Assembly: GCA_030524745.1 (NCBI GenBank) | Contig: JAUNGC010000029.1 | Location: 1 to 49,040, forward strand | Origin: Eubacteriales bacterium | GTDB lineage: Bacteria > Bacillota > Clostridia > Lachnospirales > Lachnospiraceae | Direction: 5' to 3' | DNA: 49,040 bases | Shown here: piece after piece, positions 30,874 through 33,402 of the stretch | Numbering within the stretch: the stretch's first letter is position 1 | Layout: the number at the start of each line of letters is the position of its first letter | Made by a program: the position numbers and the translations under genes | The notes under the pieces: generated by a model | Seen by the model: the letters and a program-made list of their open reading frames with translations, nothing else | Databases searched by the model: none | What the model was told of the DNA's origin: nothing

Positions 30874-30876
30874 GAG

Positions 30877-31232
30877 TGGACTAGACGGGAGTCGAACCCG
30901 TGTCCAAAAGCCCATTCCCTGTCCTTCTACTATCATAGTCTGTTCATTGTGTACGGTCTTACTCCGTACTGTTCCCTCGCAATTCAGAGAGCAGACACTC
31001 TGAAAAGTCCGGTAGCTTCATGATACGCCTGCAGGGGCAAAGCTTAACCTGCATCGTTTCTCACATAGTCGATGCCTGGGTCTTAAAGTGTGAGTGCCTT
31101 AAGTCAGACAGCCGCCCTTAGGCAGCGTATGCTAAATTATCTTCAGCGTTTATATTTAGGTTTGTGGTTTGACGCACCACCTGCGGATAGCTTCTCCAGC
31201 TGCAAGACCCCTGTCGAAACCTTGACTAGCCC
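30877..31232 (-). ncRNA. ssrA: transfer-messenger RNA (tmRNA)
   Basis: The RNA that rescues stalled ribosomes with SmpB. Read on the minus strand, the 5' end GGGCTAG (31226-31232) pairs with 3' CTAGTCC to form the tRNA-like acceptor stem. The T arm GGACACGGGTTCGACTCCCG is just before the end. The tag frame (31118-31147) reads GCT GAA GAT AAT TTA GCA TAC GCT GCC TAA, that is AEDNLAYAA, a typical clostridial degradation tag. After the discriminator A comes CTC rather than CCA, so the CCA end must be added by enzyme. The total is about 356 nt. Confidence 0.96.
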
Positions 31233-31411: not shown

Positions 31412-31804
31412 ATGAAAGAGAAATTAATGCGTTTTATGCAGGGCCGCTATGGGGTGGATCAGTTCGGGAGATTTTTGACGTGGGCGAGTATGATTCTTTT
31501 GATTGTTTCCATGTTCTTCGGGCAGATCTGGTTTCTGGCGGCGCTTCTGGTTCTGATTTATAACTATTTCCGCATGTTTTCGAAGAATATTGCGAAGCGG
31601 TATGCGGAAAACCAGAAATATCTGGCGAGTACGGCGCGGCTGAGGCAGTTTTTTTCAAAGAAGAAATACGGACTGGGGCAGCGAAAGACGCATCATATTT
31701 ACCGCTGTCCGAACTGCAGACAGAAGATCCGCGTGCCGAGAGGAAGAGGAAAAATTGAAATCCGCTGTCCGAAATGCGACGCCAGATTTGTGAAGAAAAG
31801 TTAA
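31412..31804 (+). CDS. small membrane protein with C-terminal zinc ribbon
   Basis: A 130-aa protein with two membrane helices at about residues 20-36 and 41-55. A basic stretch follows, and then a zinc ribbon made by two CPxC knuckles, CPNCRQKIRVPRGRGK and RCPKCDARF, at about residues 98-126. The ribbon would face the cytoplasm given the positive residues around the helices. No enzyme motif is seen. It starts 11 nt after AAGGAG and ends 10 nt before the next gene, so it is likely the first gene of a small operon with the DUF5685-like and J-domain genes. Function unknown. Confidence 0.72.
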   Translation: MKEKLMRFMQGRYGVDQFGRFLTWASMILLIVSMFFGQIWFLAALLVLIYNYFRMFSKNIAKRYAENQKYLASTARLRQFFSKKKYGLGQRKTHHIYRCPNCRQKIRVPRGRGKIEIRCPKCDARFVKKS

Positions 31805-31814
31805 GGACCGAAAT

Positions 31815-32660
31815 ATGTTTGGATATATTATTGTGAACAAGCAGGAAATGAAATTCCGGGAATATGACTGCTATCAATCTTATTATTGCGGTTTATGCCA
31901 GAATCTGAAAGAGCGCTACGGCAGAAGCGGTCAGATCACATTGAGTTATGATATGACGTTTATTATCCTGTTGTTGACGTCTCTTTATGAGCCGGAGACG
32001 GAGCAGGATTGCTGCAAGTGCATCGCGCATCCGCTGGAAGCCCATTCCACGAGACAGAATCAGTTTACGGATTATGCCGCCGATATGAATGTTTTACTTT
32101 CCTATTACAAATGTCTGGACGACTGGACGGACGAGAAGAAATTCTCCCGGCGGGCGGCAGCCGGATTTCTGAAGAAAAAGAACGACAGGATTTCAGAGAA
32201 ATATCCGGAGAAGGCAGAGAAAATTTATACCTTGCTGGAGCAAATCCGGCTTTATGAAAAGGCGGGCGAAAGAAATATCGACCTCGCCAGCGGATGCTTC
32301 GGAGAGATTATGGGAGAAATTTTCGCTTACCGTCAGGACGAATGGGAAGCGGAACTGAGAAGAATGGGATTTTTCCTGGGAAAATTCATCTATCTGATGG
32401 ACGCTTACGAGGATATGGAAAAAGACGCAAAGAGCGGAAATTATAATGTTTTTTTATATAAAAGGGAAGAATATCCCGATGAGGAAAGCTTTGAAAAAGG
32501 GGCTTATACGATTTTGAATATGATGATGGCGGAGTGTTCGAGAGCGTTTGAAAAGCTTCCTATCATAGAAAATGTGGAGATTCTTCGGAATATTCTCTAT
32601 TCCGGCGTCTGGTGCCGGTATGAGTTTGTGCAGAAGAAAAAGGAAAAGAAAGATGCGTGA
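31815..32660 (+). CDS. DUF5685-like protein with two Asp-rich motifs
   Basis: A 281-aa helical, soluble protein of unknown function. It opens [20 protein letters not shown] with Cys pairs YYCGLC and DCCKC, which could bind metal. Two acidic motifs stand out: D102-D103-W-T-D106-E107 (a DDxxD) and D196-A-Y-E-D200 followed by D204, then SGNYNVF. Class I isoprenoid synthases use a DDxxD/DxxxD pair to hold Mg2+ and diphosphate, and squalene/phytoene synthases have DxxED followed by a Gly and Tyr. The two motifs here are 94 residues apart, shorter than in those enzymes. The resemblance is my inference, not a family assignment. The gene overlaps the J-domain gene by 8 nt. Confidence 0.75.
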
Positions 32661-33402
32661 TCCCTATCAGGTTCTGGGCGTTTCGAGAGATGCGTCGGAA
32701 GAAGAAATCAAAAAGGCATACAGAAAACTGAGCCGGATATATCATCCGGACGCCAATGTCAATAATCCGAATAAAGAACAGGCAGAAGAGAAGTTCAAGG
32801 AAATCCAGCAGGCTTACCAGCAGATCATGAAAGAAAAAGAGCAGGGAAGCTATGGCGGCTACGGCACGCAGAGCGGGAGCGAAAGAAACTACGGCGGAAG
32901 CGCCGGCTATGATCCCTTTGAAGATTTTTTTGGCGGCTTTGGCTTCGGCGGTTTTGGCAATTATGGCGGTTATGGGCAAAGGCAAAACAGGGCCGGGGAT
33001 GAGGATGAATATTCCGCACATATGAAAGCGGCAATGAACTATATCAACAGCGGCCACTACAGAGAAGCGCTCAATGTGCTGGACGGAATTGGCGAGCGGA
33101 CGGCGAAATGGTATTATTACAGTTCTGTGGCGAATCAGGGACTGGGCAATAACGCAGTGGCTTTGGAACATGCGAACAGGGCGCTTTCCATGGAACCGCA
33201 GAATATGGAATATGCGAATTGGAAACAGAGGATGGAATCGGGAGGCAGTTGGTACAGCGGCAGGCAGACGCAGTATGGCGGCATGCCGACGTATTCCGGC
33301 GGCGGATTCTGCTGGAAGCTGTGTCTGGCAAACCTGATTTGCAATCTTTGCTGCGGAGGCGGCGGTTTATGCTGCGGCGGCATGCCGGGCGGATACCGGT
33401 GA
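32653..33402 (+). CDS. J-domain protein with Gly-rich linker and Cys-rich tail
   Basis: A 249-aa DnaJ-like cochaperone. The J domain is at residues 1-65 ([21 protein letters not shown] with the HPD needed to stimulate DnaK). A Gly/Tyr-rich linker spans about 75-115, followed by a TPR-like helical part ([28 protein letters not shown]). The last 30 residues are Cys- and Gly-rich ([21 protein letters not shown]) and partly hydrophobic. It lacks the CxxCxGxG zinc repeats of true DnaJ, so it is a specialised J protein. The start at 32653 lies inside the previous gene's end (8-nt overlap), so expression is coupled. Confidence 0.85.

Follow-up and report, generated by a model that had tools for sequence, protein, structure and literature searches.

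The window analysed here is a stretch of 49,040 nucleotides from a Eubacteriales bacterium (contig JAUNGC010000029.1). The open reading frame at 31815..32660 on its plus strand codes for a protein of 281 amino acids, for which a compact class I isoprenoid-synthase fold is predicted. The name "DUF5685-like", used in a preliminary description of this DNA, proved appropriate: Pfam family PF18937 (DUF5685) matched across the full length (positions 1-271/272, E 3.7e-111, 371.3 bits compared with a gathering cut-off of 26.7). At E values up to 1 this was the only Pfam match of the 281-aa protein, and neither the squalene/phytoene synthase family (PF00494) nor the trans-isoprenyl diphosphate synthase (polyprenyl synthase) family (PF00348) was hit. 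Nothing matched in NCBIfam, and a sequence search of the PDB with the single protein found nothing. Of the profiles used, A1 was built from 41 sequences and A2 from 39 of those available. The PDB search with A1 gave four weak matches, which were taken as chance; the best of them was a phage tape-measure protein (whole-sequence E 0.0031, best stretch E 0.26).

The start of the next gene (32653..33402, plus strand) overlaps the end of the DUF5685 gene by 8 bases. Pfam and the sequence indicate that its 249-aa product consists of a J domain, a Gly/Tyr linker, a TPR-like part and a Cys-rich tail. The DnaJ match (E 4.4e-22) and weak TPR matches were obtained on the longer reading frame 32572-33402; the HPD motif is at residues 31-33. 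The C-terminal tail (residues 220-249, 33310..33399, plus strand) contains seven cysteines, and the columns of C220, C234 and C241 are conserved at 90% or more in 39 J proteins. On the other side of the DUF5685 gene, 31412..31804 (plus strand) codes for a small protein with a hydrophobic N-terminal half and a CxxC...CxxC zinc-ribbon-like end, whose zinc-ribbon matches were all below cut-off. The hydrophobic part would be compatible with a place in the membrane. Homologues of this gene were found in 38 of 84 loci, the window being one of them, either ahead of DUF5685 or behind the J gene. Close to the cluster, on its upstream side, a tmRNA gene (30876-31232, minus strand) specifies the tag peptide AEDNLAYAA.

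DUF5685 was found at 45 homologous loci in bacterial genomes, in 33/299 genomes sampled from the host phylum and in 71/120 genomes of the host family, one of the latter below the curated cut-off. Further matches came from four plasmid records, four phage records (two of which were read) and two additional actinobacterial records, and scans of viral contigs found no relatives. The family has thus been seen in Clostridia, Actinobacteria and Thermotoga maritima, the last being a control genome that also has a PF18937 match. In the open-licence literature searched, the family name occurred in a list in the accessible part of PMC9403866 and nowhere else. The comparisons described below are based on 84 loci, 83 of them with a DUF5685 reading frame; in the remaining one (L044), which is cut by a contig end, the frame was not found. 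The loci are not independent, as they include several near-identical relatives and the window itself (L046). Three of the 33 DUF5685 genomes of the phylum sample (G087, G122 and G135) are outside this set.

Conservation was assessed by aligning the query with 82 homologues, the most distant of which shares 15% identity with it (83 proteins in total). The first Asp-rich motif, DDWTDE (residues 102-107, 32118..32135, plus strand), is at the end of the predicted helix 83-107; D102 is present in 83/83 and D106 in 80/83 (96%) of the proteins. The second, DAYEDMEKD (residues 196-204, 32400..32426, plus strand), occupies the end of helix 178-199 and the start of helix 201-207 of the model, with D196 and D204 in 83/83 and D200 in 81/83 (98%). 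It is followed by SGNYN (residues 207-211, 32433..32447, plus strand), in which N211 is present in 83/83. Together with G189, the residues D102, D196, D204 and N211 are invariant, and all five aspartates are retained by 79/83 proteins. Since the motifs are conserved in proteins down to 15% identity, they are not chance occurrences. The preliminary description had named DDWTDE (102-107), DAYED, a further Asp at 204 and SGNYN, with a gap of 94 residues between the motifs. Its figures hold, DAYED lying at 196-200 and thus 94 residues after 102, and the two motifs on which it had relied are near-invariant in the family.

The structure model of the DUF5685 protein has high confidence. In the structure comparison, the best 50 entries were all isoprenyl diphosphate synthases by title; the best Foldseek match had a probability of 1.00, with modest E-values (5.4e-4) and modest TM-scores. 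Structures of MoeN5 were among the listed matches with probability 1.00, and solved squalene or phytoene synthases were absent from the best 50 matches of either listing, which excludes nothing. The model is all-alpha as in the class I isoprenoid-synthase fold, and two of its long helices, 83-107 and 178-199, each have an Asp motif at their C-terminal end. Class I isoprenoid synthases carry their Asp motifs in the same position. Judged from the helix order, the two helices would be the equivalents of helix D and helix H.

Profile alignment pointed to a particular branch of these enzymes. The DUF5685 profile used with hhalign had 82 rows, in which the window was represented twice (query and L046), and L085 and L086 were omitted as degenerate. 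Against 13 squalene/phytoene synthases it gave a probability of 79.9 (P 1.4e-5, score 46.6), and 71.4 when query and template were swapped; in global mode the probabilities were 68.7 and, swapped, 63.3. The control scores were at most 23.6 for 100 block-shuffled profiles, 15.8 for the reversed profile, 22.7 for 64 J proteins and 25.6 for 28 polyprenyl synthases. As a yardstick, phytoene synthases aligned to polyprenyl synthases gave a local score of 42.0 and a probability of 61.9, and in global mode 90.4 compared with the 68.7 of DUF5685. By this profile comparison DUF5685 is nearest in sequence to squalene/phytoene synthases. DDWTDE pairs with their ADDIVDE and D200xxxD204 with DIGED, the Tyr/Asn stretch in SGNYN (GN-YN) aligns with the R-x-Y-L-P stretch that follows their second motif, and a Gly-containing helix between the motifs is shared. 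DUF5685 differs from them in giving no PF00494 match at E up to 1 and in having a shorter stretch between the motifs, as the preliminary description had said of the known enzymes in general. The extra D196, a set of three cysteines, a beta hairpin and the Cys tail of the companion are features of DUF5685 beyond those of squalene/phytoene synthases. For trans-isoprenyl diphosphate synthases, in addition to the missing PF00348 match, the hhalign probability was only 3.1.

This register also changed the reading of the second motif. It had been described as part of a "DDxxD plus DxxED" pattern, with DAYED (D196-D200) as the DxxED element. Two conserved Asp motifs are indeed present, but the equivalent of DxxED is D200-x3-D204, which replaced D196-D200 after the profile alignment. 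As D200xxxD204 pairs with DIGED, D196 would be an additional aspartate one helical turn earlier. With this amendment, the proposal of a class I isoprenoid-synthase fold, with the Asp motifs on helices of an all-alpha protein, is well supported by the predicted model, by its Foldseek comparison, by the profile match and by the near-invariance of the motifs. DUF5685 is probably an active, compact enzyme of this fold.

The N-terminal part of the protein contains a second group of conserved residues, a putative three-Cys metal site. Its first part is CGLC (C25 and C28; 31887..31898, plus strand), and its second part is C69 with H72 (32019..32030, plus strand), located in a beta hairpin (residues 63-81) of the model. 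C25, C28 and C69 are each present in 81/83 proteins (98%), the exceptions being L085 and L086. Of the "two Cys pairs" noticed previously, C25/C28 is therefore conserved, but the second group is reduced to C69, because C66 and C67 are not conserved (44 sequences). H72 (32028-32030) occurs in 60/83 proteins. It was present in 59/67 members counted as having a J-protein partner (these 67 being all members not listed otherwise) and in 0/15 others; thus H72 is not essential to the family, and its distribution may reflect either kinship or partner type. Judged roughly from how the helices follow each other, the Cys trio would be about halfway up the bundle, a position in which a metal could serve structure just as well as catalysis.

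The chief hint at what this family does, missed by the preliminary description, is its link to Cys-rich tails, and this link is a stronger discovery than the fold. Under a loose criterion (4 Cys), a Cys-rich C-terminal tail was found at 76/83 loci, encoded at 71 of them by a nearby gene on the same strand and at five in cis, on DUF5685 itself. The cis tails belong to all four actinobacterial records (Nocardia sp., N. farcinica, Tsukamurella and Nonomuraea) and to one genome of the host phylum (L070). At 66 loci the partner has both the HPD motif and the tail.

To judge whether such tails are merely chance Cys-rich reading frames, cysteines were counted in the last 50 residues of all frames of at least 100 codons within 450 bases of the DUF5685 gene. 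With at least five Cys, 68/83 loci passed downstream on the same strand, compared with 4 upstream and with 3 and 2 on the other strand; with at least six, the numbers were 54, 0, and 2 and 1, respectively. These controls argue against chance. We quote thresholds of five or more because with four cysteines 30/83 loci passed upstream, too; we infer that these upstream passes come from the zinc-ribbon gene.

The tail also persists where the rest of the partner differs. Four tailed partners (at L047, L064, L071 and L076) have no HPD motif, so that the tail looks like the constant feature. L047 is a second, diverged DUF5685 copy in the host genome (contig C41:48114-48938); its partner has 146 residues, no HPD motif and 16 Cys among the last 50 residues. 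In a Subdoligranulum partner (L084:4935-5570) the J-like start reads NPD instead of HPD, and nine of the last 50 residues are Cys. The tails carry many cysteines and no single fixed site. In the actinobacterial cis forms, 7 to 15 of the last 40 residues are Cys. The median hydropathy of the last 30 residues was about 0 for the five cis tails, compared with 0.67 for the 71 trans tails.

No adjacent tail was found at seven of the 83 loci (L022, L072, L073, L074, L075, L085 and L086). The L022 sequence ends 788 bases past the DUF5685 gene. At L072 and L075, which belong to one taxonomic family, two related tailed proteins (153 and 142 aa; L137:802-1263 and L140:982-1410) are encoded 6-7 kb away on the other strand. 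Both combine a Pro/Gly linker with a Cys tail and are candidate trans partners. At L073 and L074 the Cys trio and all five aspartates are retained, yet the tail was not found in the stretches read (one of these, L138, is cut by a contig end). L085 and L086 come from unverified gut phage scaffolds. Neither has a tail, and both have lost the three cysteines and some of the Asp-motif residues; retired copies would be expected to look like this, although the two are just close relatives of each other.

Co-occurrence was also followed with short motifs taken from the tails. DxxCECMGGD was present in 9/299 genomes of the phylum sample (six families), each time at a DUF5685 locus, and in 0/266 genomes lacking DUF5685; the reversed pattern gave 0. 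N-x-C-C-G-G-G, from the window's own tail, was present in 9/120 genomes of the host family including the window's, again always at a DUF5685 locus, and in 0/49 genomes lacking DUF5685; here the reversed pattern gave 2. Because both motifs were drawn from DUF5685-adjacent tails, seven of the first nine in these same genomes, their presence at DUF5685 loci is partly by construction, and the informative part is their absence from other places and from genomes without DUF5685. For the same reason a hypergeometric value of 8e-10 calculated for the first motif was set aside. Each motif represents one tail subtype and is unmatched in 24/33 and 62/71 DUF5685 genomes, respectively. G087 and G122 provided two further tailed loci outside the set used for DxxCECMGGD. 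At E up to 0.01, a query comprising the J/TPR part and the tail matched 27/299 genomes, 21 of them with DUF5685 and six without it; in these six, the last 40 residues of the matching frames contained 0 to 2 Cys. Among the 21, the match in G249 (locus L169) looked like chance, too. The tail linkage rests mainly on the locus counts and on the strand and upstream controls.

From the Asp motifs, the predicted fold and the tail link we infer a prenylation chemistry. By analogy with ComQ and ComX, DUF5685 may prenylate cysteines of the tail and so tether its J-domain partner to the membrane, whereas in Actinobacteria it would tether itself; among the explanations weighed here this is the best, at somewhat less than even odds. 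Put more generally, and a little more tentatively, DUF5685 could be a bacterial protein-cysteine prenyltransferase built on a class I fold of the squalene/phytoene-synthase type that lipidates Cys tails in trans or in cis. Through Mg2+, the two Asp motifs would bind a prenyl diphosphate, either FPP, GGPP or a longer one. One or more thiols of the tail, rather than a second isoprenoid, would be the acceptor, and the product would be an S-prenylated tail serving as membrane anchor for the J-domain protein or, in the actinobacterial cis form, for the DUF5685 enzyme. C25, C28 and C69 would bind a metal, which could either activate the acceptor thiol or hold the structure. A prenyl donor is plausible, as a search of the host genome gave one match to polyprenyl synthases and none to squalene/phytoene synthases (PF00494).

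The same data were weighed against other explanations. The nearest profile relatives of DUF5685, the squalene/phytoene synthases, make small molecules, and DUF5685 might likewise act on small isoprenoids, as a terpene synthase or by head-to-head condensation, with tail and J protein acting only as membrane anchor, scaffold or folding helper; the tails borne by DUF5685 itself in the four actinobacterial records are what such an anchor would look like. On the other hand, the tail is kept while the rest of the partner changes, and no terpene-tailoring enzyme was among the neighbour products listed in the three annotated records read, so we regard a small-molecule product as unlikely. The extreme Cys content of some tails (16 in the last 50 residues at L047, 7 to 15 in the last 40 of the actinobacterial cis forms) suggests a metallothionein-like metal or redox element, next to which DUF5685, with a conserved Cys trio of its own, would be a metal- or diphosphate-binding protein past prenyl transfer. 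That the cis tails are not hydrophobic speaks against prenylation of the tail and fits metal binding as well. Further points against prenylation are the lack of one fixed site among the many Cys of the tails, the Trp targets of all characterised class I-fold peptide prenyltransferases (PMC13290415), and L073 and L074, where Cys trio and aspartates are kept but the stretches read hold no tail. The trans tails, however, are mildly hydrophobic by their median (to which Cys itself contributes), and Asp motifs that are near-invariant to 15% identity are unlike those of a retired enzyme, which makes a mere binding role rather improbable. Least probable, in our opinion, is prenylation of some other acceptor with the J protein as chaperone of the enzyme or its product. 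MoeN5 is a class I-fold enzyme that prenylates a lipid or glycolipid, and its structures are among the Foldseek matches, but such an activity would leave the tail unexplained, and no lipid or glycolipid genes were listed in the three annotated records.

If prenylation of the tail is true, bacteria own a machinery for attaching isoprenoids to protein cysteines, an S-prenylation route independent of the eukaryotic farnesyltransferase. Cysteines would then be modified by a fold otherwise associated with small-molecule terpenes and, among a small number of peptide enzymes, with Trp. The DUF5685 family would acquire a function and the class of Cys-tailed J-domain proteins an explanation, in a two-gene system simple enough for testing. 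Whatever the product, both the isoprenoid-synthase fold predicted for DUF5685 and its linkage to Cys tails give leads that can be tested directly. A literature search found nothing specific on bacterial Cys prenylation or on Cys-tailed bacterial J proteins, which is weak evidence because open-licence literature alone was covered.

Several known systems resemble parts of the proposed arrangement. The eukaryotic cysteine-string protein (DNAJC5) has a J domain followed by a Cys-rich segment that serves as lipid anchor and is acylated by DHHC enzymes. The order of J domain and Cys-rich segment is the same in the DUF5685 partner, but in the bacterial protein the segment forms the C-terminus and is linked to DUF5685. 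The protein farnesyl- and geranylgeranyltransferases of eukaryotes differ in fold and subunit plan. The likeness to DUF5685 would be confined to the proposed chemistry, S-prenylation near a C-terminus with a metal-activated thiol, whereas the tail linked to DUF5685 has no CaaX box and has many cysteines. According to the accessible part of a 2026 review (PMC13290415), the eukaryotic Cys prenyltransferases act through a Zn-bound thiolate; by analogy, the three-Cys set of DUF5685 could have a similar role. Peptide prenyltransferases of the ComQ, PalQ and ChrPC type are class I-fold isoprenoid enzymes, as DUF5685 is predicted to be. ComQ, a relative of FPP/GGPP synthases, prenylates ComX, the product of the next gene in its cluster (PMC5331326, as far as available), and at 71/83 DUF5685 loci a nearby gene carries the Cys-rich tail that would be the substrate. 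The characterised class I-fold peptide prenyltransferases all target Trp in the account of that review (PMC13290415), whereas the partner of DUF5685 offers a Cys-rich tail. Finally, the second Asp motif is described as degenerate in ComQ (PMC5331326, same portion), in contrast to DUF5685, in which it is intact.
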